Positions 39,955-64,000 of a stretch of DNA of 64,000 bases are shown piece after piece. Position numbers and translations under genes: made by a program. Where the stretch lies: the NCBI GenBank assembly GCA_039995105.1, contig CP146203.1:1984001-2048000 (forward strand). The letters are read 5' to 3'. The DNA comes from Jonesiaceae bacterium BS-20. GTDB taxonomy: Bacteria > Actinomycetota > Actinomycetes > Actinomycetales > Cellulomonadaceae. Every line of letters starts with the position of its first letter. Positions within the stretch are counted from its first letter, which is position 1. The notes beneath the pieces were generated by a model. That model saw only the letters and a list, made by a program, of their open reading frames with translations, did no database searches and was not told the DNA's origin.

Positions 39955-42900
39955 ATGGAAGCCTTGGCTCTTTTGAGTAACAAAGAACGTCAGATCCGCG
40001 CAATGGATGCGCTGGTCAAATACATCGCCCCATACGTCAGCAACAAGATGTCTGCTACGCACGGCCCCGATTGGCAGGTTGCGTATGAGGCCAAGGAGTC
40101 CCAGCGCCGCAACTCACCGTTTACGCTATCGCTCGAGGACATTCGCGCCTTGCTGCGGATTCTGCGCCACGAGCGTGCGGTGTTCCCTGAGGTCGATGCC
40201 TCGCAGCGGGCTTGGATTGATGAGCTCATTCAGGCGACCAATCTGGTGGCACACACCGCCGTCATTTCCGAGGCGCAGGCCGAGCGCGCAATTGATACCG
40301 CGGCTCTGCTTGCCCAGTCGCTCGGGTTGACCGAGTATCTGGACGACATTGCGGAGCTGACACCCACGGATAAGAAAACCAGCATGGTCCCGTTTGAGGT
40401 CCAAGATTCTGCGAGCGCCGCGGCAGCCTTGGGTACCCCGGGGCACTCGGTTTTGGGTATCTCCACTGAGAAAGACGGCGGACCTGGGCTCAACGTTATG
40501 GCCCAGTTTCGCGATGCCATTAATTTTGCGTTGGTCCACAACCACGTCTCCCCAATCACCCTGATTACGGTGAGCAACTCCTGGAACCAGGACATTAACG
40601 ATGTCACGGTCGAGTTTGACCTCGAGGCGCTGCGTGCGGACCTTGCGTTTGGGGCTCCCCTGCGGATCCCGGTTGGCACGGTTCCTGCGGGCCAGACCGT
40701 CGAGCTTGGCCCTGGCCACTTGGGTTGGCGGCTACGCCCGGCCGCGTTCGTTGCGCTGACCGAGTCCACCAGCACCCAGATCACCATGCGCGTCACCGCG
40801 CAGGTTCCAGTCGCGACTAGCCCGGCAGTAATTGGCTCAGCTGTAACCAGCACCGCGACAACTAGCACTGAACTCAAGGGCTTCCAGTCCTCCAGCTCCA
40901 TCCGGGTTTTGACCGCCAACGAGTGGTGGGCTTTGTCTATTCCGGAGAGTCTGGCGGCGTTTGTGCGACCAAACGACCCGGCCATCCAGCAAATTATCTC
41001 CGCGACCCAAGAGCTCCTGCTGGAACGCACTACGTCATCGGCACTCGAGGGCTACCAGGCCGGTCCCGAGCGCGTGTACCAGATTGCCGAGGCTATCTAT
41101 GACGCCATGGCCGCTCAGAACCTGAACTACGTGGAAGTTCCACCATCATTTGAGGGCACGGGCCAGCGCATCCGCACCCACGCCGAGGTCCTGTCCCAGC
41201 GTCAGGGTAACTGCCTGGACCTGTCCTGCCTGTATGCGGCGGCGCTCGAGTACGCCGGGCTCAACCCGGTGCTGTGCGTGGTTGAGGGCCACGCGTTCAC
41301 CGGGTATTTGACCGAGGACACCCAGCTCCCCAGCGTTGCCTTGGACAGCGCGACCGCGATTCGGTCAATTGGGGATTCAGAGCTTTTCGATGCCGTAGAG
41401 CTGACCGCGTTAGCCGCCGGTTCCGGCTCTGCCAGCTTTGATGTGGCCCGCGGGAAGACTCGGGCCTGGTGGGGCGCCAAGATCAACCAGTTTGATTACA
41501 TGCTCGATGTTGCCCGCGCTCACCGCATTGTGAAGCCGCTGCCCAATATTTTGGAGCAGGACGGCGTGCTGACCATCGAGACCGTGCGTGAGGTTGAGGC
41601 TCCTGCGGCCCGCAAGATTCCGCGCACCACACAAGCCGCAAGCGCAGCAGGCTCAAGTGCCCCAGATTCTGCGGCACAGGCGGCCCCAATCCCACCGCGG
41701 GTGAACAACTGGCGCCGTTCCCTCCTAGACCTCAGTTACAACAACCCGCTGCTCAAGCTCAAGCAATCATCCAGCGTCACCCTGCACTGCCCAAGCGGCG
41801 CACTCGCCAAATTTGAGGACAAGGTCGCGGGCGGCGAGGTCATCAACCTTTTGCCAAGCGACCAGCTGGCCCAGATCCACCAGGCCCAGGGTGCTCGCAG
41901 CGCAGGCGACATTGACGCGGAAGCACTCAACCAGATTTTGGTTGATGAAAATACCCTGCACACGAACCTGACTTCCGGTCAGTACGCCACCCGGCTCAAA
42001 CGGCTGGTCCGCAACGCCAAGCTCTCCCTTGAAGAGACCGGCACGGACAACCTCTATCTAGCCTTTGGCACACTCCACTGGGAGGAACGCGGGCGGCAGG
42101 GTGAGGCTCCGTTGTTCCTCCAGCCCATCAAGATCACCGCCGGCGCCGGGAGCCGGCCGTTCCGGATCGAGCTTGATACCTCACGGGACACCCAACCCAA
42201 CTATTGCCTCATTGAAAAGCTGCGGGCATCGTGGAATATCGAGCTGCCGGAACTCGCGGACCCGGGCATGGATGAGTCAGGCATCGACATTGTTGGCGCG
42301 CTTGCCGCCATCCGCTCGCGCCTGGTGCGCTCCCACGTGTCTGATTTTCACGTGGAGGAAACCGCGCACCTTGCCCTGCTGCAGTTCTCCACGCTTGAGA
42401 TGTGGCGTGACCTCACGGATAACTGGCAAGCGTTTGAGGCTCGCCCGGCCGTGCAGCACCTGATTCACTCGGCCGGGAGTTTCCCGTTCGATGACCAGGT
42501 GCCACCTCCCGAGCCCGCTCCGGACGCCGAGGCCACCACGTTCCTGCCCATCTTGGCGGACGGGTCCCAAATAGAGGCCATCCGGTGGGCGGCCGCGGGT
42601 AAGTCGTTCATCCTGGAGGGCCCACCCGGCACGGGCAAGTCCCAGACCATCACCAACCTCATTGCCCACCTGCTCGCCCAGGGCAAGAAGGTCCTATTCG
42701 TTGCGGAGAAGCAGGCCGCCCTTGAGGTGGTTCAGCGCCGGTTGGACTCGGTTGGCTTGGACCCGTTTACCCTGGATATTCACGGCAAGAAGCAGTCCCC
42801 AAACGTGGTCAAGCAGCAGCTCAATACCGCACTTGAGCAGATCCTGAGCGCGTCCCCCAGCTGGGAGACTAAGCGCGCCACGTACCGCTCGCTCGTGGAA

Positions 42901-45900: not shown

Positions 45901-46644
45901 ACGCAGTCACTCCTAGCATCTGTTTCCGCAACGCTGGCACAGTCGGCCACACCTGCAGCCAAGCCAGCACCAATCTCCTACCGCCCAGCCGAGGAACTCG
46001 ACTTTGAGCCCGCCTCAATAGCCCCTCAGCACAAGCGGGATCTCTTAGACTCCCACTCCTCAGCGGCACTCGGAGCTATTAACGAGCAGGTCCAGCAGAT
46101 CATCGCGACCGAAAGCCCCATCCTGCTGGACCGTGCGGTCAAGATCTTGGCCCACCGCTTTGACCTGTCCGCCGTACGTGAGTCCAGACGAGAACAACTG
46201 GAAAAGTTCTTCCCACGGGACCAAACCTTCAAGGCACCCAACGGGGATCAGATTGTCTGGGCCACCGCCGCAGACCGCCACAATTACACCAGCTACCGCG
46301 TCCCCACCAACGGCGAACAACGCGATCTCTATGATGTCCCCTATGACGAGCTAGCCAACGCCATGATCGTCACCGTACGCGACGCAATCCAACTCGCAGA
46401 AGATGACGTCCTCCGCGAAACAGCACGCAGGTTCGGTGTCAACACTCTCACCAAGCGCGTGCGTGACCGGCTCCAGCCAATCCTGCAACTACAGGTTCTT
46501 CACCACCAACTAACTCAGTCCGATAATGCTTATTCAATACCCGAAGCCAAGCCAGATCTTTCTGACATTACAAACCTTGAAATTCAGAGAGGGCCTCTCA
46601 GATATCCACGATGGCACTTACAAAGGAGTAGCAATGATCTTTGA
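39955..46644 (+). CDS. DUF4011/DUF3320 SF1 helicase-nuclease
   Basis: A 2229-residue protein. Domains in order: a transglutaminase-like region (QGNCLDLSCLYAAALEYAG at about 420, EGHAFTGYL at 445, ALDSAT at 465); DUF4011 at about 585 (NNWRRSLLDLSYNNPLLKL); an SF1 helicase core with GPPGTGKSQ at 893, VVFDEASQI at 1530, SWHYRSRDE at 1608 and RLNVAVTRAKS near 1800; a five-residue repeat tract at about 1647-1676; a restriction-fold-like segment at about 1850-1950; and DUF3320 at 2020-2155. Such proteins are frequent in defence islands and are thought to process foreign DNA. The ATG at 39955 follows AAGGA by 4 bases; an ATG at 39943 is an alternative. Base composition is G+C-rich until the last about 100 bp. 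The next gene overlaps it by 11 bp. Confidence 0.88.
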   Translation: MEALALLSNKERQIRAMDALVKYIAPYVSNKMSATHGPDWQVAYEAKESQRRNSPFTLSLEDIRALLRILRHERAVFPEVDASQRAWIDELIQATNLVAHTAVISEAQAERAIDTAALLAQSLGLTEYLDDIAELTPTDKKTSMVPFEVQDSASAAAALGTPGHSVLGISTEKDGGPGLNVMAQFRDAINFALVHNHVSPITLITVSNSWNQDINDVTVEFDLEALRADLAFGAPLRIPVGTVPAGQTVELGPGHLGWRLRPAAFVALTESTSTQITMRVTAQVPVATSPAVIGSAVTSTATTSTELKGFQSSSSIRVLTANEWWALSIPESLAAFVRPNDPAIQQIISATQELLLERTTSSALEGYQAGPERVYQIAEAIYDAMAAQNLNYVEVPPSFEGTGQRIRTHAEVLSQRQGNCLDLSCLYAAALEYAGLNPVLCVVEGHAFTGYLTEDTQLPSVALDSATAIRSIGDSELFDAVELTALAAGSGSASFDVARGKTRAWWGAKINQFDYMLDVARAHRIVKPLPNILEQDGVLTIETVREVEAPAARKIPRTTQAASAAGSSAPDSAAQAAPIPPRVNNWRRSLLDLSYNNPLLKLKQSSSVTLHCPSGALAKFEDKVAGGEVINLLPSDQLAQIHQAQGARSAGDIDAEALNQILVDENTLHTNLTSGQYATRLKRLVRNAKLSLEETGTDNLYLAFGTLHWEERGRQGEAPLFLQPIKITAGAGSRPFRIELDTSRDTQPNYCLIEKLRASWNIELPELADPGMDESGIDIVGALAAIRSRLVRSHVSDFHVEETAHLALLQFSTLEMWRDLTDNWQAFEARPAVQHLIHSAGSFPFDDQVPPPEPAPDAEATTFLPILADGSQIEAIRWAAAGKSFILEGPPGTGKSQTITNLIAHLLAQGKKVLFVAEKQAALEVVQRRLDSVGLDPFTLDIHGKKQSPNVVKQQLNTALEQILSASPSWETKRATYRSLVENLAQYPVQLHEAGPADLSTWDAHQVILELAHEVTSEPLKLPRSVALLDGSAEHMYTLARDLAQALAGLGVTPQAAPWRIAGPARFDYLDREGLSALVARLDRAHKAVASAAIKPLLTDVLSDAHQASLEAWLTSQRYGYGKSAVEAQQLVTPQWEAYSEQVLTALNRFVDTYEPQLGEFSPAVVSADLAAAHTLAQEADAKFFGKKKRRRQVVNMLAAYLPDAGESLDLKTLTATVDGLRKVADETTRITAFIRTLAGLNLPYDFNPLAQGQAEWLTKEIETLRTTAQLVRFNASNAKVSPTETAEYLDQLAEFMRSSPTDTAQANFDVAQEFQQAWSQLLQILQTTGEDLEFWLAGRDRFTALDQDLMHWTADATNNTFIALQRWLRVRGDLDQLSQAGGTEVVARIRANSVPTVELEAAMRLGVTQEILHERLESTGLATFDERQREATTDRFLSSGDEVRAQLRSELPARVVAARKFDVNQRAGHVAELRAQLNRRRGGMTVRQLLQTYGTVITQITPCFLMSPGSVARFLPANGLDFDVVVFDEASQIRVPDAIGAMGRGKAVVIVGDSKQMPPSSTFAASIGDSPDQDADDLPVPSDMDSILSEAVESRFPSQWLSWHYRSRDESLIAFSNQTYYEGRLSSFPSPPQESQSSVSASSAQLGSVQVGGAQLSSIQAGSVQAGSVQLVNVHGTWEGGNRAARVNRTEASAVVQEVQTLLATDPSQSIAVVTFNTQQRDLILDSLEELSGTNSLVFDALNREDEPLVVKNLENVQGDERDIILFTLAFSKNENGRVPLNWGPLSRVGGEKRLNVAVTRAKSLVKVFCSFEPHELDLGNSTSLGLAHLKEYLLLAKNGADSVLHTRSLARDRHLEEIANHLEAQGLEVKQRVGLSDFTVDLAIRFKDCPWVAVLLDSPTWASRQTVGDRDGLPKTVLMGSMGWADVERVWLPTWLRDRNSVTATLLSEAKNAKEKPKPKPVAATPAEEQSATESETSALTQSLLASVSATLAQSATPAAKPAPISYRPAEELDFEPASIAPQHKRDLLDSHSSAALGAINEQVQQIIATESPILLDRAVKILAHRFDLSAVRESRREQLEKFFPRDQTFKAPNGDQIVWATAADRHNYTSYRVPTNGEQRDLYDVPYDELANAMIVTVRDAIQLAEDDVLRETARRFGVNTLTKRVRDRLQPILQLQVLHHQLTQSDNAYSIPEAKPDLSDITNLEIQRGPLRYPRWHLQRSSNDL
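44881..44970 (+). repeat. 15-bp tandem repeat inside the helicase gene
   Basis: Six in-frame 15-bp units encode SSAQL, GSVQV, GGAQL, SSIQA, GSVQA and GSVQL. Units 4 and 5 (44941-44955 and 44956-44970) differ only at the end. They lie between helicase motif-III-like SWHYRSRDE and the following VNVHGTW strand. A low-complexity loop grown by slippage is likely. Confidence 0.9.
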
Positions 46645-49939: not shown

Positions 49940-49977
49940 AAGTGAGGCCACTCTGACTCTTCTAGACTCACTTGTTT
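49940..49977 (+). terminator. terminator-like repeat between convergent modules
   Basis: AAGTGAG (49940-49946) pairs with CTCACTT (49967-49973) and is followed by GTTTT. It lies where the plus-strand DUF4209 gene and the minus-strand SIR2 gene converge and overlaps the SIR2 stop codon. The stem is short and the loop is 20 nt, so the strength is uncertain. Confidence 0.45.
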
Positions 49978-52900
49978 TGTCGCCGGAAGCCTGCATTCGT
50001 TGCAGAGTCAATTAATTGTTGAGCACACTCATCGCCCAAAGAATCACGGACTAAATCAACTAATTCTTTGACACGATACTCCGCAAGAAATTCAGCCGGA
50101 TCTGAATTTCCTATAAGTTCTGCAAAGAACGCTACAAGTTCTGAACCATAGATTTCTAGTACTTCTCGAATGCATTCGGTAGCGCCCCTGTCAACATTTA
50201 GACTAAGATCCTTCCCCTTAAAGAGCGCGATAGCGTCAGGGATATTTGATCCCACCATCGGCACGATACTTGCCCACCCACTTAACTCAGCTTTTGTGGC
50301 AGTGCGTGGGATGCCTTTGAGGCGTTGCTGTAGGTACTCATGAATCCACAAGTTCCAAGCTGCCTCAGCTTTTAGTGAGTCTTGCTGCAACTGTTTGACG
50401 ACCTCACTTGCAAATTTTGTCGCATGATCGCCATTCTCCGCAATAACAGCCGCATCTAGAATACGCTGTCGTTCCTCACCCTCTAAGGGGGCAAAATTTA
50501 CAACTGAAGCTGTCAAGGACACAAACTGGTCTTCCAAACCACCCAATTCTAGGTCACTCAGACTCTCAAAAGCCTCAACCAGTGCCGTCAAGAGTCCTGC
50601 TTCCAAAACACGTGGGCTTACTCGTGAATGGAATAGAAAAGGCTCCCAAACATGTCTTACAGATTTCTTGTTCGAGAACAACGGGAGAATGTAGCTATCG
50701 GTAAACTCCGGATCTGCAGCATCAAAGAAATAGAGCTCACTACCGACCGCCGGCCAGACCGCGTACAAGGCATCTTCAGGTCCTTGTAGAAGAGACTCCA
50801 ATGCAGTACTTTCCTGGTTATTAAGCCCTTTCCAGCTATTGGTCTCATGCCGCCATCGGCGCTGAACCTGTGAAATCCAGAAACGTACAAGGTCACTAGG
50901 CCAACTATTGAGTGCCAAATCAGAGGGCCGGGCGTCCGCATAAGGCTTGAACGAGTTCTTACTGTTATCCCAAACTGACTGTGCCAAAATGCGCATCTCT
51001 TTAAGGAACGTACTGTCTGGCCCATCATGATTTTTACGGCTCTGTTCCAGTAGAAAGGTCGTCACTGTGCGCAGGCTAGTTTCCTCCCCTTTGAGTTCCT
51101 CCACCAATCGCAATACTGGTAGTTCAACATCTCTCAGTTCCGCCTGTGTCCATCCGACAACCAGTGCGCTCAGAAACCCAGCCCCTTCACCTCCTACTTT
51201 TGCCTTTCCTGCAACATTCCAGATTGAAATACCTTTATTCGGATGTTCAAAAGCTATTCCTCGTAGGAGCGCATAAGCAGCGTCGTATGGGTCTTCTGAA
51301 AGTCGAGAGCCTTTACGGTTCAGTTCGCCAAACCACTCAAGTGCTCCAAACGGGTCAGCTTCAATTAACTCGCTAAACTCCGCAACTGGTGGATCCGGTT
51401 CGGGCACCCAATCCGCTGACCCATGCCACATTGAAAAGTCCGGGTTTGTCCGCTCGCCAAAATCAAGATTCTCTTGTTGTATCCTTGTAAGTTCATCAGT
51501 CGCTTGCCTCCAGTTAGGGTCAGCACGAGTCAGCCAAACCAGAAGGTTATAGATTTCGTATTCACGGGTTCTTTCCCATCCTTCATACTCCCGGTCTTCT
51601 GGGTCCCCAGCAAGTACTTTCTTGAGTAAAAGATCACGAGTACTTGGCGTAGCCGAGGGCACTGCAAACTTCAAAACCTGAAATGCCTCGTGTTTAGTTC
51701 CCAGATCAAAGAGAATCTCTCGATCAAGCAACCAAATAATCTTTTCATCGGAAGAGATCCCTGGTGAGCACGCGATTAGGTGCAACGCAAGGCGCTGAAA
51801 CAGACCAAATCCTGTCTCCCACCACCGCTCATAGAGCGGAGGCGAAATCTTGGGCATAGCAGCACCGATATCGCGGAGTGCATTGATAATAATATCAATC
51901 GGTTCAACATGATTGTCTTGCGAATGAGGTTCAATCGCGGAACGGCCTATCTCAAGCACACCGCGCATGGTTAGACCGTTATAGGCATCGAGCATCTCAT
52001 AGGCAGACACCAGTGCCGACTCTAGAATTTGGAGCTTAGCAAGATCAGTCACGTCCTGAGAATCTACCCATGCTCCAATATATTCCTGCATGTCATGAGT
52101 TCTGAGCGGCCATGCGATTTCAGTACGTGGCCATGCAGCCGTTTCTTGCCAAAGAGTCGCAAAACTAGACCTGATACTCAAGAACGGAGTAAGCGCTTGG
52201 CGCACAATAGCTGTGTGCAGTGAGCGGTTCTCTCCTGTGAGAGGAAGTAGGTGTTCAAGAGGTCTTGGAGCAGAATAGTCGTGCAACGACGTAGCCAGGA
52301 ATACCTGCCATTTTTGGGCTGCTCGGATATCTAATCTCCTAAGATCATGCAGAGCAAATGCAATATCTTGGATAAGGACTGGATGTATCTTTTGTCCTTG
52401 CCTACGCAGAGCTAACATTGCCGCACTGCTACGTGCTGGAATACCAACATAGGTAGAAGCAAACCATTGAGCAAAAATCCTAGAAACATCCGAAATTTCA
52501 CTCTTTGGATCAAAATTAACTTTGTGTTCTGGTACCCTTTCTACCCATTCCAACCACTTAAACGATGTAGCTAGCTCGGTGAAGACTTTGACACCCTCTA
52601 CAGTTGATAGCTGAGCAAGAAGGTAGTCCTCATCCAGTACAGATAGTTGAGGAAGTCTTGACTCACCTTCGGGATCGTCAGCCTCCCACACAGAAACTAT
52701 CTCAGAAATACGATCTTTATGGTCGTCCGTTCTCATGCTCTTCCAGTCAGCCCAGGCATGTAGCACCCGAGGTAACTCTGAGTAGCTACCATCAGGGTTC
52801 GGATAGGTAATTGGAGTAACTTGCAGTCGAAGCAACGCTTCTCCGTTCTCCTCCCCCTCCTGGACCAACACATACCTAGAAGTCTTCGATGGCAACCCAA

Positions 52901-53546
52901 GTGTCAGGTACCGCATGACGGTGTCTGACAGGCTGTAACCAATGAACAGGACAACATTTTCTGAAAACATTGGCTGCAGAAATCGTGGGGCCCAACCATC
53001 CCCAAAATACGCACGACCAAATCCCCGATCGTCCAAAATTAGCTCGTCATGATCACGAGACAGAGATCCATGGAGGTGAACAATCCCACTAAAATCTCGG
53101 CCTAGGGGTAGTGCTGGTCCTATCCATAGATCACCAAGATCTATAGAAAGCTCTTGTGCGGCAGTGGATAAGTGAGTATCAAAATTTGTCGTTACTATTT
53201 TTGGTTTACCGGAACTGTGAGCCACTTTTGCAATGGCACGGTGAAGATCATTTGGAGCAGAGCCTTCAGGTCGTAAAAGTTCCGCAGCATGGTAATGAGA
53301 ATCGAACCTTTCGGGTAATGATCCGATAAAAGTATCAATCTGTTCTTCATGGATTTTTTCGAAGGGTTGCCTCGCCCTGTCCCCCAGTTGTCTTGCAAGT
53401 TCATGAAATAGGGGTAAGGAGGACGGCTCCGACTTTGAGACTCCCGCTCCGACAAAGAGCACTAGTCTTCCCTCAGAATGAGCCTTAAGTACCTCTTCAG
53501 GAATGTCGACTCCGTCAATAAACCGCATTTCTACCCAAACTTCCAT
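49968..53546 (-). CDS. SIR2-domain protein with long C-terminal region
   Basis: This 1192-residue protein has a SIR2-like NAD-binding domain at about residues 25-240: LVLFVGAGVSKSEPSSLPLF, IVTTNFDTHLS (about 118), GIVHLHGSLSR (about 157) and VVLFIGYSLSD. These match SIR2 proteins of defence systems, which deplete NAD on phage detection rather than deacetylate. The remaining about 900 residues are helical with no named motif, possibly the DUF4020-type C-terminus that SIR2 proteins of this size carry. The ATG at 53546 or 53528 is possible; neither has a strong site. It follows the UvrD-like gene by about 100 bp on the same strand, so it is probably the last gene of that operon and its effector, by inference. 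Confidence 0.82.
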   Translation of the reverse strand: MEVWVEMRFIDGVDIPEEVLKAHSEGRLVLFVGAGVSKSEPSSLPLFHELARQLGDRARQPFEKIHEEQIDTFIGSLPERFDSHYHAAELLRPEGSAPNDLHRAIAKVAHSSGKPKIVTTNFDTHLSTAAQELSIDLGDLWIGPALPLGRDFSGIVHLHGSLSRDHDELILDDRGFGRAYFGDGWAPRFLQPMFSENVVLFIGYSLSDTVMRYLTLGLPSKTSRYVLVQEGEENGEALLRLQVTPITYPNPDGSYSELPRVLHAWADWKSMRTDDHKDRISEIVSVWEADDPEGESRLPQLSVLDEDYLLAQLSTVEGVKVFTELATSFKWLEWVERVPEHKVNFDPKSEISDVSRIFAQWFASTYVGIPARSSAAMLALRRQGQKIHPVLIQDIAFALHDLRRLDIRAAQKWQVFLATSLHDYSAPRPLEHLLPLTGENRSLHTAIVRQALTPFLSIRSSFATLWQETAAWPRTEIAWPLRTHDMQEYIGAWVDSQDVTDLAKLQILESALVSAYEMLDAYNGLTMRGVLEIGRSAIEPHSQDNHVEPIDIIINALRDIGAAMPKISPPLYERWWETGFGLFQRLALHLIACSPGISSDEKIIWLLDREILFDLGTKHEAFQVLKFAVPSATPSTRDLLLKKVLAGDPEDREYEGWERTREYEIYNLLVWLTRADPNWRQATDELTRIQQENLDFGERTNPDFSMWHGSADWVPEPDPPVAEFSELIEADPFGALEWFGELNRKGSRLSEDPYDAAYALLRGIAFEHPNKGISIWNVAGKAKVGGEGAGFLSALVVGWTQAELRDVELPVLRLVEELKGEETSLRTVTTFLLEQSRKNHDGPDSTFLKEMRILAQSVWDNSKNSFKPYADARPSDLALNSWPSDLVRFWISQVQRRWRHETNSWKGLNNQESTALESLLQGPEDALYAVWPAVGSELYFFDAADPEFTDSYILPLFSNKKSVRHVWEPFLFHSRVSPRVLEAGLLTALVEAFESLSDLELGGLEDQFVSLTASVVNFAPLEGEERQRILDAAVIAENGDHATKFASEVVKQLQQDSLKAEAAWNLWIHEYLQQRLKGIPRTATKAELSGWASIVPMVGSNIPDAIALFKGKDLSLNVDRGATECIREVLEIYGSELVAFFAELIGNSDPAEFLAEYRVKELVDLVRDSLGDECAQQLIDSATNAGFRRQNK

Positions 53547-53648: not shown

Positions 53649-55859
53649 TCAGCGATTGATAACCACCAGTTCATCACGAGCTCGGGTGGACGCTACATAG
53701 ACCAGGGCACGGTTGCGTAGTAACTCTTCATCAACTTCAGCTTCACCACGGCTACGCTGGGCCTGCGCAGATTCATTTAGTAAGGTCTCCTGGTCAAAGA
53801 TAACGACCCTTGAAAATTCCATGCCCTTAGCGCGGTGCATCGTCATGATCTGAACGGTTCCTGGATCTGTCCGTGTCGAGTCTTCAATGAACCGGGCTGG
53901 GATACCTTTTCCGTTCAGCTCTCGCTCAATTGCGTCAGCTTGGGATTTACGGGCAATGAGTACACCGATTGTGCGGATCTCGTCTTCGTCTTGCTGGCGC
54001 CACTGCGCTATTTGCTCCGCAGTCTTGGCAACAGCATCACCTAGGTGGCTTGCCTCAATGACTTGCGGTTCCGGTCCAAAACGTGCTGACACAAACTTGT
54101 CCGTAGTTGCTTCCTCGCCATCCAGGTCGAGGAACTCACTGCCTTCCAAGACTTTTACCGCATACCGCAGGTTTTGCTGAGTAGTCCGGTAGTTCAGTGT
54201 CAGACGCCGAGAGCGGCCTCGGATCTCAAAACCAAAGTGCCCCAAGATAATCCGCTGGGCGTAGATTCGTTGGTTTCCATCCTCGGCGACGAAGACGTCA
54301 TTTGGTCCCGTCTCCACAAGTTCGCGCACCAGCATCCAGTGCGCTGCAGAAAAGTCTTGTCCCTCATCGATGATCACATGGTCTGCGATAGTTGTGGACC
54401 CCTCGGACGTTGCTCTTCGCAAGTATGCAGCCGCTAAGGCAGAACGTTCCGCGAATGATGGGGCTTCCCCAGCTAGCAGACGATACTTCTCTATCGCTTG
54501 CCAAACCGCGTCTCTGCGGGACCGGTCTAGGGCAATGCCTCGTCCTGGCCTGCGAACTTTCCTGTACTCGTCACGGGTGGTGATTGCACGTGGCAGCACG
54601 ACGTTTTCATACTCTTGTTGCAGAAAGGCTGCATTACGCACTCGGTCATCCGTAATGTTCTCCATGACCTCCATGGCTGATTCCCAAAGTGTAGTTTTGG
54701 GAATCTGGAGCGTGCGGTCTACTTGGCGCCCCAGTAATGCAACTGAGACTTCGTCCAGTAGTTCCTTAGATGCCTGGCGTAGTACGCGTCCGGCCAGGGC
54801 ATCAATGCCGCTCACTAGAATGCCTTGGTTCCCCAACTCTTTTGCAAAAGTCGCGGTGGGGTCCAGCAGCTCCATGTTGTCTTTCAAAGACTCAGCAAGT
54901 GTCTTGCTAAACGTGGTGAGCACAATCCTCGCTGCGGGGTTCTTTCTCTGTAGCTCTCTTGTGCGGTGGAGAAGAACGACAGTTTTACCTGTTCCCGCTC
55001 CCCCTGAAAGCCTAAAGGCACCGTTGTAGTCACCGTATGCGTAACGACGTTGAGAGGGGTGCAAGAAGACTCGCCAGGCACCAAAGTCACCAGCCTCGAT
55101 GACTTCACGGAGTTCATCTTCCCCATCGACAATGATGAAGTTAGCCTTTGCGGCTTCACGCTTGGTCGCTTTAACAATGACCTCATCCGCAGACAGATCG
55201 AGTTCCGTCTCAGGAACTTCTTCTTTGAGTTGCTGCAAGAACTCCGAGGCCTCATCGAGGTCAAAGATCTTCCGAATCTCAGAGATTGGGGTTCCAGTGG
55301 CCAACTCGATAAGCATTTGGGATTCAAGCCCAGAGATCACTCCCGCAAGGTGGATAATCTCATCCTCGGTGTACAAACCCATCGCGAGTTCTGCAACATC
55401 TCGTGCAAAGCCAAGTTGCTCAACCAAGTCTTGGGCGGTGTGGCTCCACGTAGAAAGCAGCGGGAACGCTTCCTGTACTTCTGCGGCAGTAACTGGTTCA
55501 GCAACAGGGGAGAACTCTCGAGGTGCAATCTCCTGCTCTCGATAAACGATGTCACCATTCACCGCGTTCACCGACAGGGTGAGCTTCTTGGCCCGCTCAA
55601 TCGCCTCATCGTGAGGGAAAATCCCATACAGGTAGTACAAGATGGTGGCGTCACTTGGCACCTTGACCATGACAGCCCGCCAGAACTGATCTACACGCCC
55701 GGTACGGACACGGCGATCAGCCGAGTTGATAATGGGTTCGATATGGAGCCCCGGAGAAGTGTCATCGCGCATGATCTTCTCGGTGAACGCTATGGCCTTC
55801 ATGGCAATAGAGGCATCGAGATTCTTAGTCCACCCTTGACGTAGTACCACTTGGCTCAT
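53649..55859 (-). CDS. UvrD-like SF1 helicase with RelE-like N-terminus
   Basis: This 736-residue protein opens with a domain (about residues 1-95) resembling RelE/ParE toxins: DRRVRTGRVDQFWRAVMVKV, then YYLYGIFPHDEAIERA, matching the HDxAYxxA end of that fold. SF1 helicase motifs follow: GGAGTGKTVVL (Walker A), HVIIDEGQDFS (Walker B), LTLNYRTTQQNL, IMTMHRAKGMEFSRVV and LVYVASTRARDEL. It unwinds or translocates on DNA. Its ATG directly follows the stop of the 2225-aa helicase gene (TAGATG), so the two are translationally coupled and probably form a complex or work in sequence. Confidence 0.87.
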   Translation of the reverse strand: MSQVVLRQGWTKNLDASIAMKAIAFTEKIMRDDTSPGLHIEPIINSADRRVRTGRVDQFWRAVMVKVPSDATILYYLYGIFPHDEAIERAKKLTLSVNAVNGDIVYREQEIAPREFSPVAEPVTAAEVQEAFPLLSTWSHTAQDLVEQLGFARDVAELAMGLYTEDEIIHLAGVISGLESQMLIELATGTPISEIRKIFDLDEASEFLQQLKEEVPETELDLSADEVIVKATKREAAKANFIIVDGEDELREVIEAGDFGAWRVFLHPSQRRYAYGDYNGAFRLSGGAGTGKTVVLLHRTRELQRKNPAARIVLTTFSKTLAESLKDNMELLDPTATFAKELGNQGILVSGIDALAGRVLRQASKELLDEVSVALLGRQVDRTLQIPKTTLWESAMEVMENITDDRVRNAAFLQQEYENVVLPRAITTRDEYRKVRRPGRGIALDRSRRDAVWQAIEKYRLLAGEAPSFAERSALAAAYLRRATSEGSTTIADHVIIDEGQDFSAAHWMLVRELVETGPNDVFVAEDGNQRIYAQRIILGHFGFEIRGRSRRLTLNYRTTQQNLRYAVKVLEGSEFLDLDGEEATTDKFVSARFGPEPQVIEASHLGDAVAKTAEQIAQWRQQDEDEIRTIGVLIARKSQADAIERELNGKGIPARFIEDSTRTDPGTVQIMTMHRAKGMEFSRVVIFDQETLLNESAQAQRSRGEAEVDEELLRNRALVYVASTRARDELVVINR

Positions 55860-58800
55860 CTAGTTCGCTCCGCTCATCTCTTGTACGACCAACTCAATAG
55901 CATCTGCCAGCTCAGGGGCTGTACAACCAATCATCTGCCATCCATCTGACACAGCATCTATGCGGTCAGCTTCTTCCATATCGAATGACGTTGCCAGTCG
56001 GTACTCCGGCCAAGCTATATCAAGGGGTACCCCTTGCTCACTCTCATATCCAATGACCAGGCCGCTTCTGACTTCCTCAAGGTCGACACTTCTTTCACTC
56101 AACAGAGTCGCCAGTTCTTGCAAGAGCGCTGACTCGTGCGGCTCAAGACTAAACTCTCTCAGATCCCACTGGCCTTCGAGGTTTCGTTCAACAGCACTCA
56201 GGGCAGTAGTCAGACTCTCGTCAACAATCTCCCCAGATTCCTGCAGTTGGCTCAGCGCAGCCATTTCAAAGTCCCATTGCATCCATGCCAAGAGATTCGA
56301 AACCGTGAGCCACTCTTGCCAGGTGTCTCTGTGGTCCCCTTGTTGAAGTGCCGAGTCGCTATCGTCATGCACTGCAAGCACCTTGATCTGGTGCCCTACC
56401 TTGCTTCCAGGGGGACTGATAAGCGATTGGTTAAGGAACAAGTTGCCTTGAGTTTGTAGCGCAGCTACGAAGAAGTCCCCGCTGCCCCACTCAAGAGTCT
56501 CCAGGGCTTCACTCAAGGAGTCGGGGCTCACCCGAGAATTTGCCAACCCATTCGCAAGTTGCTTCAACGATCCCTCGGCAGAGCCTTGCACCAGCCCACT
56601 GCCGTAGAGGTTCCAATAGAAACCAGCAATGGTACCCAAGCCCGCTAACCCCGCGGCGCTTGCCGAGTACACAAATGACCACAGCATTCCCATGGGTCCT
56701 TGGTCAGCAACCGCATACGTTTGGGTCTCTGCTCGTTCACCCAAAATGTTGTTGAGGACCGATGCTTGCCCTTGATCAAACCAGGAAGGTAGGTACCCTG
56801 AACCATCAAGCTCAAGGTCCTGGTTTGTGATGGATAAAACTACGTGCCCAAGTTTCCTCAGTGCATTCCTTTTCTCAGCGTCCTCAGCAATGATGTTGTT
56901 ACTTCCCTTGCCATGGAACTGATATCCATCGGTGAAGATTGATACGGGAGGCAGGTTTGGGTCATCTGATTGCAGCACAAAGTCAGGCCTGACAAATTTG
57001 TAACTGACTTGCGGTTTTAAGGTCCAAGCATGTTTGCCGTTGGGTAGGCGGAAGTCCAGTTGGATTCCAGAATCGGTGTGTTTGGTAGTAACCCTGGCCC
57101 CACGGCTCTCTAAGAGTTCCTTGAACTGGGTCCTGAACTTTACTTCTAGGTGCGATTCCGAAGTATTGCTCAGCGTGACGTCTTGAACCGTTACCCACTG
57201 ATCGACCGGATCAGGATCTTCTTCCGGTTCAGTATCAGTGGATTCGTTGAGGATTTCCGTCAAGATTCTTGTCGCACTGGAACGCGACACGTAGGAATCT
57301 CCGCGCCCGCGTGAGTAGGGCAACAAGCACTGGGCACAGGCTTTCAGTCCCTCATCCTCACAGGCGCATCGAGACACCACTAGGTACGCACCGTATAGAA
57401 TCTTACGGAGCACAACCGGGTCAGCCAGGTCTGCCAAGTACCCGGTACCGCCAGGGACACGGTCATGGATGAGAACTGCTTCACGGTTCTTTGATCCATC
57501 AGCTAAGTAGGGATCAATAGCGCTGATCACTTCAAGGTGGTCAGGTTCTCCCCCGATGTGCTCGCGCAAACCAAGGAAGATCGCGGCGATTAGCGAAGGC
57601 AGCGCCGTTTCATCTCCAAGGGTGTAGACCTCGGGTAAGCGCAACACCAGTCCCTGTGTGCTAAGGGTCCGGCTAATCACCAGCCGGCGGTTATGTTCCT
57701 CGTAGCTTTTACGGTGAATACACCAGGCTCGGTGGTCTGATGGTGAATTCCGGTTTGTGGATGAGTCTAGTTTTCCACAGTAGCTACAAACCGCAAACAT
57801 GGGCACACGCTGCGTACGTCCACCAATTTCTGACTCTTGTCCGCCCGGTCCGCCCTTGCCTAAATTCAACTGGGTGATGGTGAGTTTCCGCAGGTACCTG
57901 ACGCCAAATTCGCTGTCTTTGAGGTACCACTGCCGGGCCAAGTTCTGTGGCGAGGCGTCAATATCAGCGAGGTCAACTATCCCAAATGTAGTTTGCACCC
58001 GGTCATCTTGGGAATCCGAGATCATGGCCTCATCCCGCATGATCTCAGAAGAGACCTTCCGTAGTTCAACTACGTCAAATATTTGTCCCGTGTCGTTAAT
58101 CCCAGCCGAGCCACAGCGCGGGCAGGTTACTGACTTGGTTCCAACATCTGAAATCCGCTCTGAGTACCCGCAGGCATTGCAGAATGCGGTTGGGTAGACT
58201 TCTGATCCTTCGGCACCAAAGTCGATTGATTGAATCTTTGTTTTGAACCCTCGAGCGTAGAACGTAGCGCCCGGCACAAACTCCCTGATTGCGTTGGCAG
58301 CACTGCGGGTGAGGGTCAGTTCATCCGTTTCAAACTCTCGGGTCTCTGGGTTGCGCCAGCCAATTGAAATGTCTAGTTCAACGCTGTCATCCAACAGAGT
58401 GTAGTTTGGTAACAGTCCGAGCTCTTCGAACGCTTGGATCCAGTTTTGCTTATCGCGTGCTACTTGCTGTCCAACGAGCAAGCGGCGTTCACCCTTTAAC
58501 GAGCGACCTGCCTTTACATCGTCTTCTGATGCATTCTCATTTTTGGCCCGTAGTTCAATCTCTGGGGCAACCTCATCAATCTGAGCTAGCCGGAACTTGA
58601 TTTCATCCTTAACTTTGCTCCAGCGTTGTCCCGCTCCGAAAGCCTCGGCGGCAAGCGCAGAGGTGCCAGTCCCATCAACCGGAGTCGCCCAGGCACGTAG
58701 GGCAACGGCAGCCTCATCAAAGTGGGGAATCCCCAAGGAATCAAACTGCCCCAAGAATCCAGCTAGACAGTCATTGGCGTTCTCTTCTGCATATCCAATT

Positions 58801-61800
58801 ATCTGAGCCAGTGCAGATTTTTTGCCTGGAGCTGGGGAGAACACCCGTTCTGCGTTTCGCGGTATCTCAAAGACCTGCTCACGGGCAATCTTGTCAATCA
58901 CGGTGGCTAAATATTGCCTGCGCAGGATCTCTTCCGCGGCAAGGTACGTGGCAGGGGCACGGACAGCCCCGTTGATCACCGAAAGTGGATCATCCAGCTT
59001 TGGAAGGTTGACCGAGTTACCCCGCACATAGGCAAGATCTAGTGCATTTCCAGTCTGCCGCCCAGCACGTCCAACCCGCTGCACATAGGAAGCAACGGTT
59101 TCTGGCAGTGACGCCAACAAGACGGTGGACAGGTCTCCAATGTCGATTCCCATCTCAAGCGTTGGGGTTGCGACAAGGACATTTGGGTCACCTGGGTTTT
59201 GAGCGCTCGACTTGAACCCGTTTTCGTACTCGAGCCGCTGATTGTCTTCAAGCAGCGACGTGTGCTCGCGGGAAACAATGCGCCGCGCATTTTCAGAACT
59301 ATAAAGCTCCCGGTAGAAGTTAGGTTCACCGGACTTTGCCACCTGCCGCCCATCACACCTGGTCAACGTACATGGCCCAGTGGCAAGGATTGCTACCACG
59401 CGGGAAGTCGCGGGCGTAATAGTCTGGCAGACCTCGCACTCAAGGAAAATCTCGGATGACTCTAGTTCTTGTGACTCCACCCTCTTGACCCAGATAGATT
59501 TTGGATCGAGCCCATAAATATAGGCACCGGTCTCACTAGTGAGTTCCGTAATAACCTTTGATTTGGCCAGCATGCGCAGGAGTTTTTGCGTGAGCGTCGC
59601 AGCAGAGTTTGATTCAATCTGAAGGTTTCGCATTGCCCAAATGGAATACCAACTCTTTGCATGCCTGAAGTTCACAAAGTCGGAGTCCGCGCGTCCTCCC
59701 AAAGACTGACCACCACGGGGGAATGCCATACCAGGCCGCCCCTTGGGGAACGCTGGCATTCCCAAATCTCGAGGCCGTTTGCCCCAGATCCAAATGCGCA
59801 AACCATCATGTTGGGTGTAACGGTCAAGCCAAGGGTGGTTGATCGCACCATCTGAGCGCATTCTTTCTAGAATCCCGGTCACCCACCGTAGAATCTCCGC
59901 ATCCGTAAAAACCTCTACCTCATCTACGGAGTGAGTCAGTGACGGCGATTGCGAGTAGCCTTCAAGAGCTTCTCGCCCCAAAGCAACAAGATCAACACCA
60001 GATGGGACTTGCACCTCAGCCTGTACGCTTCCGGTTAGCTCAAGCGTCCGGCCCAGAGTGTGCTGCAGACCAAACTCAAGCGAAGCGTCAAAGAGCAGAC
60101 GGCTCCGCACACGTTCAACAGCAGACTTTGAGATCCGCCCAGCATTTTTCTCCTGCCAGTACTCCTGATACCCCCATCGATCTGTGCAGTCTGGCGGTAC
60201 CAGCCGGAACCGCTTGTGTTGGTCGCCGGCGGCCTGATCAATCGCACTGTCCACCAAGGTAACTAGGTTCTGCGGCTCATCCCCCAAGGCCGTGTTGAGC
60301 GCAGCACGCAGCGTCATGGAGTGGGAACGGGCCTGCACAAAACCTGCTCGGTGAGCCGCGTCTTGCACCGAGTCTGTAAATACCAGCGCCTTCTTTTCAC
60401 CCACATCCACGTATTGGGAGCCAAACATGGTGGACAGGGTTACGGACAGAAGCGTGGCAATCCTGGATCCTAGTGCCCTAATAGAGTCCGGGCGGTCGCA
60501 GTTTGGACAGACCTCCTGTGAGCTCAGATCATTCGCGTCGAGGCCAGAAAAAGTGAGCACGGGCAGCAGAGTTTCACGGTCCGCTTCGAGTTCATCTACC
60601 GCGGGAGTCTCCGAGAGAATTGTGCGCCGCTCGGTATCGAACCAATGCAGGTTGGACACCTTTTTGCCCTCAAGCGCCTGCAGGCCCTCATTCGGCGCAT
60701 AGATCAGTGCCCGTACGCGGCCACTTCCATTCATGGCCTCCCTGCGGATAGCGTCATCATTGGGAGACAGGTCTCCTCCGGTGGGGGCAAGGAGCACTTG
60801 CCACCCGGAACGGCCGCATTGCCGGCAAAAGATTGCGGGCAGGCTGGCACGGTTGTCACTGTCTGGGTTTTCCCCGGTCAGGTGTCCGTCATCTTGCCAG
60901 TGGAATGCCGGGGAGTATCCAATTTTACGGTTGACCCGGGAGACTTCCCGGACCCACATATGTAGCTCTACCGTCAGAGCTTCACGCCCCGCCTCGGCTC
61001 TGACATGACTCAGGGCCGCAATGTAATACTCGAGTGCCTCGACCCTAGGGTCCTCAACCGGGCCATCACGCCGCAGACGCTGGGCCTGAGCAATGGCGCG
61101 CTGCTTTTGGGGCAGGAATAGTTGCTCAGCCAGGTCCCGCAAGGACCGTGCCCCTCCCGATGCCTCAACAAGCGGCCCCGTCAGCAGGCACAGTTTTTCC
61201 AACTTCAGAAGATCGTCGTGGCTAGCTCCAGCGAGTACCTGCGCTGCGGCAATGAGTTCTAGTGGCTCGTTCTCACCGACATCCAACGAGTCACCCAGCA
61301 AAACCCCCTCGGTCTGTGTCACCGCAAAAAAGTGACTGAACACCAGAGCGGCCAACTTACCGGAGTAGTTTTCCAAGTCGGTGTCCTCACCAAATCTAAC
61401 CAGTCTAGGATCGACACCGGAGCGGTCCTGGTCAGGATCCAAAATGGCCAAGAATCCCTTGACATCCTCGACCAGTTCCCACAGGCGCACCTTGTCAGTT
61501 GAGACCGGGGTAACCCGCACACCCACTGACAAGTCCACAGAGGTTTGTCCCCACACATCGGGGCTAACCCGTGCCTCCGTCACCACAGAATCCGGTGGGA
61601 ACTCAACACCAAAAACGGTCCGAGCGAAGGCTAGCATTTGCCCGGGGTCGCCCTTATCCCCCAGGGTTGCTGAGGTTGCTACAGGGGTGACCGTTCCCAA
61701 CGGGCTGTTCCAGTCACCTTCAGTTAGGTCGGGGTCTTCCTTGGACCAATAAGACTTGAGGGCAAGGCCCAGCCGGCGGAGCAGCATGGCCACATCGGTT

Positions 61801-62537
61801 CCCTGCGCACCGTCATAGGTGTGGAACTCATCAAGTACCAAGTACTGCAGGCTGCGGGCCGATTCTTTCCACAGGTTCTGGTCTGAGGGGCGCAGTAGGA
61901 GCTGATCCAACATCTTATAGTTGGTCAACAGAATGTCTGGTGGATTCTTGCGCAGATCGTAGCGGTCGGTAATGAGACCACCCGCAGCAGTCTCAAGGGC
62001 GGATTTGTCTTGTCCCGTGTAGAGGCCAACCGTTATTCCCTCAAGCCCCGCCATTTGCGTGACAAGTGTATTGATACGCATGGCCTGGTCATTGGCCAAC
62101 GCGTTCATGGGGTACAGGATCAGTGCCTTAATGCCCTGCTGTCCCGTCAGTTTGGCCCGGCGCACATGGTCCAGGATTGGGTAAAGGAATGCCTCGGTTT
62201 TACCCGATCCGGTTCCGGTAGTCACAAGCGTGGGCAGCGGGCGCTCCTCCGGTTCCAAGTCCTTAGATGACAGCCGCGCGAACGCCGCTGCCTGATGTCC
62301 ATAGGGCGGAAACTGCGGCGCTATCTCGAGGTGGTCTTCCCAGCCCTGCTCAGCCGCTTGGAAGGGCAACCGGAGTCGCAAGAATGGCCCTTTGAACACA
62401 CCTGTCTGCGGATCCGCCATGAACTCGCTCAGCCCGTTATTCGCACCGGGCTCAGTCAGCGCAAAGGTAGTAGACAGGTAGTGCGTGAGGTGTTCACGGA
62501 TTTCTTTTGCCTGCAGCGTTGGTAGCAGCTCTGCCAC
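55860..62537 (-). CDS. DEAD-type helicase with DUF1998/MZB and nuclease-like domain (DruE/DISARM-like)
   Basis: A 2225-residue protein. Near the N-terminus is the P-loop TTGTGSGKTEAF (about 110) and the Walker B variant VLDEFHTYDG (about 237). The second helicase lobe is at about 1120-1180 (TPTLEMGIDIGD, YVQRVGRAGRQTG). Zinc clusters follow: CNACG..CPRCG at about 1455, CSYCG..CIH at 1582, and the DUF1998/MZB signature CACEDEGLKACAQC at 1720. At about 1830-1910 is PDFVL..VSIFTDGYQFHG..EDAEKRNALRKLGHVVL, resembling a DUF559/Vsr-type restriction fold. A helical C-terminus completes it. This size and order recall DruE of Druantia and a fused DrmA-DrmB of DISARM. GTG start at 62537 with AAGGAG upstream. 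It is coupled to the UvrD gene. Confidence 0.87.
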   Translation of the reverse strand: MAELLPTLQAKEIREHLTHYLSTTFALTEPGANNGLSEFMADPQTGVFKGPFLRLRLPFQAAEQGWEDHLEIAPQFPPYGHQAAAFARLSSKDLEPEERPLPTLVTTGTGSGKTEAFLYPILDHVRRAKLTGQQGIKALILYPMNALANDQAMRINTLVTQMAGLEGITVGLYTGQDKSALETAAGGLITDRYDLRKNPPDILLTNYKMLDQLLLRPSDQNLWKESARSLQYLVLDEFHTYDGAQGTDVAMLLRRLGLALKSYWSKEDPDLTEGDWNSPLGTVTPVATSATLGDKGDPGQMLAFARTVFGVEFPPDSVVTEARVSPDVWGQTSVDLSVGVRVTPVSTDKVRLWELVEDVKGFLAILDPDQDRSGVDPRLVRFGEDTDLENYSGKLAALVFSHFFAVTQTEGVLLGDSLDVGENEPLELIAAAQVLAGASHDDLLKLEKLCLLTGPLVEASGGARSLRDLAEQLFLPQKQRAIAQAQRLRRDGPVEDPRVEALEYYIAALSHVRAEAGREALTVELHMWVREVSRVNRKIGYSPAFHWQDDGHLTGENPDSDNRASLPAIFCRQCGRSGWQVLLAPTGGDLSPNDDAIRREAMNGSGRVRALIYAPNEGLQALEGKKVSNLHWFDTERRTILSETPAVDELEADRETLLPVLTFSGLDANDLSSQEVCPNCDRPDSIRALGSRIATLLSVTLSTMFGSQYVDVGEKKALVFTDSVQDAAHRAGFVQARSHSMTLRAALNTALGDEPQNLVTLVDSAIDQAAGDQHKRFRLVPPDCTDRWGYQEYWQEKNAGRISKSAVERVRSRLLFDASLEFGLQHTLGRTLELTGSVQAEVQVPSGVDLVALGREALEGYSQSPSLTHSVDEVEVFTDAEILRWVTGILERMRSDGAINHPWLDRYTQHDGLRIWIWGKRPRDLGMPAFPKGRPGMAFPRGGQSLGGRADSDFVNFRHAKSWYSIWAMRNLQIESNSAATLTQKLLRMLAKSKVITELTSETGAYIYGLDPKSIWVKRVESQELESSEIFLECEVCQTITPATSRVVAILATGPCTLTRCDGRQVAKSGEPNFYRELYSSENARRIVSREHTSLLEDNQRLEYENGFKSSAQNPGDPNVLVATPTLEMGIDIGDLSTVLLASLPETVASYVQRVGRAGRQTGNALDLAYVRGNSVNLPKLDDPLSVINGAVRAPATYLAAEEILRRQYLATVIDKIAREQVFEIPRNAERVFSPAPGKKSALAQIIGYAEENANDCLAGFLGQFDSLGIPHFDEAAVALRAWATPVDGTGTSALAAEAFGAGQRWSKVKDEIKFRLAQIDEVAPEIELRAKNENASEDDVKAGRSLKGERRLLVGQQVARDKQNWIQAFEELGLLPNYTLLDDSVELDISIGWRNPETREFETDELTLTRSAANAIREFVPGATFYARGFKTKIQSIDFGAEGSEVYPTAFCNACGYSERISDVGTKSVTCPRCGSAGINDTGQIFDVVELRKVSSEIMRDEAMISDSQDDRVQTTFGIVDLADIDASPQNLARQWYLKDSEFGVRYLRKLTITQLNLGKGGPGGQESEIGGRTQRVPMFAVCSYCGKLDSSTNRNSPSDHRAWCIHRKSYEEHNRRLVISRTLSTQGLVLRLPEVYTLGDETALPSLIAAIFLGLREHIGGEPDHLEVISAIDPYLADGSKNREAVLIHDRVPGGTGYLADLADPVVLRKILYGAYLVVSRCACEDEGLKACAQCLLPYSRGRGDSYVSRSSATRILTEILNESTDTEPEEDPDPVDQWVTVQDVTLSNTSESHLEVKFRTQFKELLESRGARVTTKHTDSGIQLDFRLPNGKHAWTLKPQVSYKFVRPDFVLQSDDPNLPPVSIFTDGYQFHGKGSNNIIAEDAEKRNALRKLGHVVLSITNQDLELDGSGYLPSWFDQGQASVLNNILGERAETQTYAVADQGPMGMLWSFVYSASAAGLAGLGTIAGFYWNLYGSGLVQGSAEGSLKQLANGLANSRVSPDSLSEALETLEWGSGDFFVAALQTQGNLFLNQSLISPPGSKVGHQIKVLAVHDDSDSALQQGDHRDTWQEWLTVSNLLAWMQWDFEMAALSQLQESGEIVDESLTTALSAVERNLEGQWDLREFSLEPHESALLQELATLLSERSVDLEEVRSGLVIGYESEQGVPLDIAWPEYRLATSFDMEEADRIDAVSDGWQMIGCTAPELADAIELVVQEMSGAN

Positions 62538-62594: not shown

Positions 62595-64000
62595 TCATCT
62601 TGCGGTCTCCATGGTTTTCAGTTTGTCCTCAAAGAACGCATACGCGGCACGCATGTCTGCCTCACGGTCGTTCGTTTCAAACGGGAACTCATAGGTGTAC
62701 CGGCTAGGTCGGTGGCCCGTAAGTTCTTCAGCCGCATCGCAGTCTAATTCGGTCTTAGGGAAGGTACGTTCTTCACTGGTCAATGACTCGCCCTTCTTGC
62801 GGTACTCACCAGCAATACTGTTGGGCACTTGGCGGCCATTAGCGTCATAGAGGTTCTTCTTTTCATACCCGTACAGGACCGCAAACTGTGTCCGGTAGAC
62901 CGTGCATAACTCATCCGCGCTGAGACCCAACATGAGAGCTACCAGTGCGTCGATCTCAACCAGGGCCTGCCTGCGAGCCGTTGCATTCCGTAGTGGCGTA
63001 GCCGCTGACCAAGCCGGTTCAATGTCACCAAGTGAAACCTTGCCGTTGTAATCCCGGTGGGGCGCCCACGTCATTGCCTGCCATGCCGGATCAAACGCGT
63101 CATTCCAAAGATCAGAGTATGCGTCCGTCAGACAATTGAGGCGCGCAGCCCGCAATGCAAGTTCGCTCGAAAGCGGGTGGTCCTGCACGAATGGTAGTCG
63201 TCCAAATGTCGAGGCGTGAATTCCAGACTTGGGAGCTGCTCTAACAGAGAAGTCTAGTGATAATGATTGTGAAAAGGCCGCCAGACAGAACAAAGTTTCC
63301 GCAGTCTGATTGGGAATGCCTACGCTTGCAACACCATGAATGTGCGCTGTTCCGGGTGGGATAATCGTAGAGATTAGAGTTCTTTCACCTGTGTTCGCCG
63401 CCATTGCACGCCAAGCAATACGGTAGTGATCCCGTGCGGGAATCTCACCGTTCTCACCCCAGTGGGTGTAGGCGGAGTCGTAGTCCTGCTTGCTTGGAAC
63501 CGGTTTGTATGAAGTGTACGGCGACGCCTCTGGAGCGAGAGTCTCCAGATCAACCTCAGACCAGTCGAGGTTGTTCTTCATGCCTTTGTTGGGCTGCTTA
63601 AAAAAAGGCAAACCAACGTGGAAGTTTGGCCCTTGGAGAATTGTCTCCTTCCAAGCTTCTGGTTGGCCCCAAGCGACATCAAAATACCCTTTTTGGCGGT
63701 CGATTGTTTCATTCCAACCTGCTGAAAACTCAGGTTTTAAGGCAGAAACTCTTGGATTTACTGAAAGTACTTCAAGTGCATGTTCTACCGAAGTATTCAC
63801 AGAGTAGACCATCGGAGTACTCAAGATGGATTCTCCTGTCCGTCCCAAGACCCTGTTCCAAACATCCAAGGTGTCTACCGTGACTTTAGAAATACGATGG
63901 GCGTGTGAACTTTGATCCCATTTTCCAAGGTCATTCTTCACCCCCGGTTCAGGCCCCAACCCATCATGTTGGAAGGAACGCACCACTGTTTCAGGATGAT
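62595..64000 (-). CDS. type IIG/Eco57I-like DNA methyltransferase, C-terminal part
   Basis: The frame is open to the right edge of the window (no stop in the last codons), so the N-terminus and any catalytic motif (NPPY) lie outside. The visible 468 residues resemble the target-recognition half of type IIG and PglX-like methyltransferases: YRIAWRAMAANTGERTLISTIIPPG, then FCLAAFSQSLSLDF..GIHASTFGRLPFVQ, then ARRQALVEIDALVALMLGLSADELC. It would recognise and modify self DNA. It is 57 bp upstream of the DEAD helicase gene on the same strand and is thus the first visible gene of the module. The call depends on motif recognition and is uncertain until the missing part is seen. Confidence 0.7.
   Translation of the reverse strand, partial: HPETVVRSFQHDGLGPEPGVKNDLGKWDQSSHAHRISKVTVDTLDVWNRVLGRTGESILSTPMVYSVNTSVEHALEVLSVNPRVSALKPEFSAGWNETIDRQKGYFDVAWGQPEAWKETILQGPNFHVGLPFFKQPNKGMKNNLDWSEVDLETLAPEASPYTSYKPVPSKQDYDSAYTHWGENGEIPARDHYRIAWRAMAANTGERTLISTIIPPGTAHIHGVASVGIPNQTAETLFCLAAFSQSLSLDFSVRAAPKSGIHASTFGRLPFVQDHPLSSELALRAARLNCLTDAYSDLWNDAFDPAWQAMTWAPHRDYNGKVSLGDIEPAWSAATPLRNATARRQALVEIDALVALMLGLSADELCTVYRTQFAVLYGYEKKNLYDANGRQVPNSIAGEYRKKGESLTSEERTFPKTELDCDAAEELTGHRPSRYTYEFPFETNDREADMRAAYAFFEDKLKTMETAR

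Follow-up and report, generated by a model that had tools for sequence, protein, structure and literature searches.

The window, a stretch of 64,000 nucleotides from Jonesiaceae bacterium BS-20 (contig CP146203.1, positions 1,984,001 to 2,048,000), contains a minus-strand open reading frame at 55860-62537 that starts with GTG, has no internal stop codons and encodes a protein of 2225 residues. The protein is identified below as ArmC, the YprA-like helicase of the anti-phage system ARMADA type II, and carries a predicted nuclease domain in its tail. Helicase and zinc-binding regions are followed by two Vsr-like copies on either side of a middle region, as follows:

55860..62537, minus strand: ArmC, YprA/DruE-like helicase of 2225 residues with a predicted Vsr-type nuclease tail
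61767..62231, minus strand: DEAD helicase domain, residues 103-257 (Pfam), with Walker A GTGSGKT from residue 108 and DEFH from residue 236
59058..59282, minus strand: Helicase_C domain, residues 1086-1160 (Pfam)
57324..57584, minus strand: MZB (MrfA Zn-binding, DUF1998 region), residues 1652-1738 (Pfam)
56781..57161, minus strand: Vsr-type PD-(D/E)XK nuclease domain, predicted to be active, residues 1793-1919
56169..56780, minus strand: middle region between the two Vsr-like copies, residues 1920-2123
55863..56168, minus strand: second Vsr/DUF559-like domain, degenerate, residues 2124-2225

An earlier note, made from the letters of this DNA, had placed three motifs downstream of the DUF1998/MZB cysteine cluster and read them as a nuclease of the DUF559/Vsr type within a DruE-like helicase. 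The motifs lie as described, with the cysteine cluster at residues 1724-1739, PDFVL at 1851-1855, TDGYQFHG at 1869-1876 and EDAEKRNALRKLGHVVL at 1885-1901. The observation of a nuclease-like domain is confirmed by the present analysis, and its interpretation is supported with three corrections.

The nuclease-like domain of the helicase tail

The case for a nuclease domain is built on profile comparison and residue conservation. When 394 genomes of the class were searched with a 225-residue piece of the tail, 42 gave matches, the own genome among them. Of the 45 tail matches, 44 lie inside open frames of more than 2100 residues (the remaining one in a frame of 1057 residues), so that the long fusion protein is conserved. 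A scan of genome contigs with the single protein gave no confirmed relative; it was this separate genome search that found relatives. The tail alignment comprises the window protein and 33 relatives of the same class, which are 19-29% identical to the first row. No locus was given to 15 of the 45 matches, which were not aligned, and genome G426 (L034, L066) was left out, with no tblastn match to the tail at 1e-3. Compared with other families, the profile of the nuclease domain matched Vsr at 97.3% (E 1.8e-11, 60 columns) and DUF559 (PF04480) likewise at 97.3% (E 2.7e-11, 71 columns), whereas five controls taken from the middle region of the tail and from the RelE-like region of the neighbouring protein ArmD reached 0.1 to 1.1%, which bears out the proposed DUF559/Vsr pattern. 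The Vsr profile was drawn from 20 of 20 loci and the DUF559 profile from 18 of 20, with L084 and L088 omitted by choice. Pfam PF18741 (REase_MTES_1575) also matches residues 1836-1908, with E=0.018 in the whole protein and 5.3e-4 in the tail alone, and is found at E <= 0.05 in 10 of the 34 aligned tails (best 5.6e-6).

The AlphaFold2 model of the tail is confident over residues 1800-1909 (block means 93-98), and structural comparison returned the putative endonuclease 3hrl as best match (Z 7.2 over 93 residues) and Vsr 1cw0 at Z 4.6 over 109. A restriction-like core would fit the predicted fold, which is not decisive. Among PDB sequences, phmmer with the 225-residue piece gave a best E of 2.1 and hmmsearch with the tail profile a best E of 0.036, with no nuclease.

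Across the 34 tails, conservation converges on the following positions:

57144..57146, minus strand: E1798, identical in 34/34
56982..56984, minus strand: D1852 (PDF motif), identical in 34/34, aligned with the PD aspartate of Vsr
56934..56936, minus strand: F1868, standing where a classical (D/E)xK site has its acid, F or Y in 34/34
56928..56930, minus strand: D1870 (TDG motif), D in 33/34 and E in 1/34
56913..56915, minus strand: H1875, identical in 34/34, aligned with the WH histidine of Vsr
56880..56882, minus strand: D1886, identical in 34/34

G1871 and R1890 are likewise identical throughout. E1798, D1852 and H1875, with D1870 and D1886, are likely to form the active site predicted from this pattern. 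The earlier note had named the aspartates of PDFVL and TDGYQF as the candidate catalytic acids, and its claim would have fallen if these were not conserved among relatives or if the predicted fold were not restriction-like. Neither refutation came about, the fold being compatible though not decisive and both acids being conserved, D1852 in all 34 tails and D1870 in 33; by the alignment, however, D1870 is a conserved neighbour and not the classical second acid, the place of which is held by F1868. That place is occupied by F in 18 and Y in 16 of the ArmC tails (n=34) and by F in 20/20 Vsr proteins, so that the ArmC site is Vsr-like, and the PD aspartate and a [DN]GxxxH-type box are further points of likeness to Vsr. 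In DUF559 proteins, by contrast, the residue two before DG is E in 17/18, the one other protein being without the motif. Vsr is a stand-alone protein that works in mismatch repair (very short patch repair), whereas the ArmC domain follows a helicase part of ~1790 residues and is encoded in an operon for defence.

Six further members were taken from named records, and D1852, D1870 and H1875 are present in each (6/6). E1798 is found in 5/6, the Streptomyces piece being gapped there, probably by trimming; D1886 and R1890 are each found in 5/6, with a gap and an M, respectively, in Gemmobacter. The Gemmobacter relative is also the only one of the six that carries E at the second-acid place. Tsukamurella and Streptomyces gave the best matches among named plasmids, which points to an actinobacterium, and a search of phage records with query P0001 gave two matches, neither covering 80% of the query.

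Residues 2124-2225 form the second Vsr-like copy, matching DUF559 at 95.5% and Vsr at 91.4% in profile-profile comparison. Compared directly, the two copies match at 21.3% only, and their kinship is drawn from the fact that each matches both Vsr and DUF559. The place of the aspartate is held in the second copy by D in 19, E in 12, S in 2 and G in 1 of the 34 tails, and the DG...H box is not seen in this copy. PDB matches of this region are PvuRts1I, AbaSI and I-Bth0305I (Z 6.8-7.2). Judged by these residues, the second copy is probably dead. Many type II proteins are described as carrying inactivated EEP and Vsr domains behind the active Vsr domain (PMC12458937); in the middle region of the window protein, residues 1920-2123, where that paper places the inactivated EEP, no EEP domain was identified.

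Several observations weigh against an active nuclease. The PF18741 scores of 15.5 and 20.4 bits lie below the curated cut-off of 38.2 bits, so that Pfam alone is not decisive, and 24 of the 34 tails have no match to this family at E 0.05. With the model of the tail, 456 residues long, Foldseek returned nothing from the PDB at E <= 0.001, a search weakened by the multi-domain model, and unrelated proteins (Mediator subunits) reach Z 5-6, compared with Z <=7.2 for the nuclease matches. The stretch aligned to Vsr spans D1852 and H1875 and leaves E1798 outside. The classical (D/E)xK acid is absent from ArmC, and activity would be either of the Vsr kind or lost. The sections of PMC12458937 that were consulted contain no nuclease-site mutant or nuclease assay of ArmC, and no test of the ArmC nuclease is given in the passages of PMC13192584, PMC13316683, PMC3943268, PMC12904381 and PMC11090510 that were consulted.

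The strongest competing explanation is that the Vsr fold is a non-catalytic relic with a DNA-binding or structural role, in which case the block on phage would come from the helicases together with the methyltransferase, or else from ArmD through its RelE-like domain. The absence of the classical acid in 34/34 tails and the degeneration of the adjacent second copy would fit such a relic, as would the inactivated Vsr domains said to be carried by Druantia I/II relatives and the lack of a reported ArmC nuclease mutant in the sections consulted (PMC12458937). However, E1798, D1852, H1875 and D1886 are invariant in 34/34 tails that share 19 to 29% identity, while the matching acid of the second copy varies as described above; Vsr proteins also do without the classical acid (F 20/20); and the first copy was predicted to be active by Bell et al. 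(PMC12458937). A relic is a possibility of the lesser kind, perhaps one chance among several, and ArmC rather likely contains an active nuclease relevant to defence.

Gene order and assignment to ARMADA type II

The gene is the third of four on the minus strand, which encode in order ArmA, a SNF2/DrmD/BrxHII-like protein of 1008 residues, a PglX/type IIG-like protein of 1606 residues, the 2225-residue protein and a UvrD/GajB-like protein of 736 residues. The neighbouring features in the window are:

62595..63998, minus strand: C-terminal part of ArmB, PglX/type IIG-like methyltransferase (1606 residues in the genome), extending beyond the window edge
53649..55859, minus strand: ArmD, UvrD/GajB-like helicase of 736 residues, which begins on the base after the armC stop codon
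55527..55859, minus strand: RelE-like N-terminal domain of ArmD, residues 1 to ~111

One criterion for ARMADA II is that the GajB-like helicase begins with a RelE-like domain, and ArmD has such a domain. The model of ArmD residues 1-270 has a mean predicted local distance difference test score (pLDDT) of 86.7, and its top Foldseek rows are mostly toxins of the YoeB/RelE/YafQ type, the first with a probability of 1.00 and E 0.013 and none at E <= 0.001. A second structure comparison of the N-terminus gave a best Z of 7.9 over 81-82 residues, with almost all of the top 50 rows belonging to the RelE-type superfamily; Pfam finds no family in the first 270 residues.

The order ArmA-ArmB-ArmC-ArmD is present in 11 of 18 related stretches (in one with ArmB in two frames) and ArmC followed by ArmD in 15 of 18. 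The 7 of 18 without the complete order, some of them ended by contig ends, count against the assignment. The Escherichia coli plasmid pLAO8 has the same four-gene order, with each protein 30-35% identical, and near copies of the pLAO8 gene occur in 518 of 5426 E. coli genomes. An IQ-TREE phylogeny of 21 rows, which drew on 11 of the 18 related stretches, places 17 type II rows, including the window protein and ArmC from E. coli ATCC 8739, on a branch supported at 100/100. Of the other four rows, two are DruE and two were placed in type I because of their gene order; the tool flags long branches among these four. Gene order, the RelE-like domain on ArmD and the tree together identify the protein as ArmC of ARMADA type II, an assignment that is held with near certainty and that replaces the DruE-like/DISARM label of the earlier note. 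Membership of DISARM was rejected, as the helicase (DrmA) and DUF1998 (DrmB) are there in separate genes, whereas here helicase and MZB form one polypeptide. In one related stretch (L049:1-3773), a tandem pair of ArmD-like genes lies behind armC.

ARMADA was defined by Bell et al. in 2025, who predicted that the ARMADA I and II helicases carry an active C-terminal Vsr domain (PMC12458937). A helicase-nuclease polypeptide of the YprA family is therefore not new, and the window protein adds a distant member to a kind that had been described before. It shares with ArmC of E. coli NCTC 12900 and ATCC 8739 the four-gene order, the helicase, MZB/DUF1998 and Vsr architecture and the conserved residues (the E, D, H and D are all kept in both E. 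coli proteins), and differs in its host and in being only 30% identical to the ATCC 8739 protein over residues 4-1912. BrxA-like, MarR-like and zinc-binding insertions are a feature of ARMADA type II helicases. In E. coli, ARMADA II protects against phage in a non-abortive manner, and protection needs all four genes as well as K110 and D234 in the Walker motifs of ArmC (PMC12458937).

Druantia III and other neighbours

Upstream of armA and on the opposite strand lie a gene of 1060 residues and a DruE gene of 1531 residues, the latter matched by DruE models to 2.6e-185. The pair, a DruH-like gene and DruE divergent from ARMADA II, occupies the genome flank past the right edge of the window (L047:8691-16465), and an integrase-core (rve) transposase-like gene follows ~1.5 kb beyond DruE (L047:17936-19459). 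For the 1060-residue gene, neither PADLOC (at 1e-4) nor Pfam (at 0.05) gave a matching family, and it is called DruH because of its position. The window and the two flanking stretches were also searched for tRNA genes, which can mark an integration site, and none was found. In E. coli ATCC 8739, tRNA-Phe is ~5 kb away from the four arm genes, and two genes upstream of these run in the same direction and are taken to be DruH and DruE from the locus in PMC12458937; Druantia III is thus upstream of and co-directional with ARMADA II in that strain, whereas it is divergent in the window genome.

A search for DruH in the 46 other genomes that bear ArmC gave matches in 4/46. DruH and DruE directly follow ArmD and are co-directional in G091 and G373; the DruH match lies on another contig in G153 and elsewhere in G214. 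The ArmC-ArmD-DruH-DruE genes form a single co-directional run in two genomes of the class (L117:372-17781 and L118:1255-19636). Of the 47 genomes with ArmC, 3 accordingly have Druantia III next to ARMADA II, and two arrangements occur among them: divergent (own genome) and downstream co-directional (G091, G373). Among 148 relatives, besides the own genome, one (G033) has a DruH match. The DruH matches are near 22-31% identity, and these counts are lower bounds.

DruE of the own genome ends 23 residues past MZB, which leaves no room for a tail nuclease. Beyond MZB, DruE has 125 residues in G091, 139 in G373 and 22 in G033, and no Pfam match falls in the stretches of G091 and G373, where a small domain may nevertheless lie: Pfam silence does not show that a nuclease is absent, since E. 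coli DruE, too, has no Pfam match for its reported PLD domains. ARMADA II and Druantia III could be imagined as one combined machine in which the Vsr domain of ArmC cuts for both, given that the neighbouring DruE lacks room for a nuclease of its own. This is disfavoured by the DruH-DruE pair of Mycobacterium smegmatis, which protects when cloned although its 1667-residue DruE is said to have no canonical nuclease domain (PMC13316683), so that DruE without a nuclease has no need of ArmC; that result lowered an estimate that was already small, and the combined machine is considered improbable.

It is more improbable still that the window protein is itself DruE and its nuclease part of a Druantia system. 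PADLOC gives it that name, with DruE3 as top match (E 5.3e-81), and Druantia III DruE resembles it as a YprA-family helicase: the E. coli protein has nuclease domains at its tail and was described in 2026 as cleaving DNA (PMC13192584). These are PLD domains, however, and DruE forms a separate clade. The tree and the gene order group the window protein with ArmC, its operon neighbours are ArmA, ArmB and ArmD instead of DruH or other Dru partners, and the DruE gene found ~10 kb past the window end, next to the DruH-like gene, fits a DruE model much more strongly (2.6e-185). That the motifs arose by chance in a tail that evolves fast, as the weak single-sequence Pfam score might hint, is in our view refuted by their conservation and by the profile-profile scores with controls, and is given next to no credence.

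Other genes of the island lie to the left of the operon. A plus-strand gene at 39943-46644 encodes a protein of 2233 residues with HEPN_Swt1, DUF4011, a superfamily 1 (SF1) helicase (AAA_11/12), an MTES_1575 nuclease matched above the cut-off (44.1 bits) and a weak DUF3320 match, named PDC-S37/Hhe by PADLOC; it is a second giant helicase in the same island, and its nuclease belongs to the Pfam family that the ArmC tail matches weakly. Directly downstream of armD, a minus-strand gene at 49968-53546 has a SIR2 domain, and its first ~270 residues match Dsr1; BLAST (1e-5) found no homologue of it in the 18 related ARMADA stretches. A plus-strand gene of 652 residues at 47889-49847 matches PDC-S39 in PADLOC (2.4e-12) and, weakly, DUF4209/DUF7380.

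Proposed working of ArmC

Domain order, homology, residue conservation, operon order and tree position were obtained directly here, and a probable account of the whole is that the gene is armC of ARMADA II, with an intact predicted Vsr site and a degenerate copy, proposed to work as follows. ArmB would mark self DNA by methylation, and the methylation would decide what is self. ArmA and ArmC would load on unmarked phage DNA, and ArmC would translocate through its helicase core with the Vsr domain held near the DNA. The Vsr domain may then nick or cut the DNA, with a metal on D1852 and help from H1875 and E1798, and ArmD would extend the damage.

The helicase-nuclease fusion predicted for ARMADA holds, from raw sequence, in a distant relative with 30% identity to the E. 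coli protein, and the pairing of ARMADA II with Druantia III, reported for E. coli in PMC12458937, is extended. The residues to change are named and the choice of acids is corrected. For an anti-phage system that is broad and was described only recently, the predicted nuclease site of ArmC is the obvious candidate for the effector.

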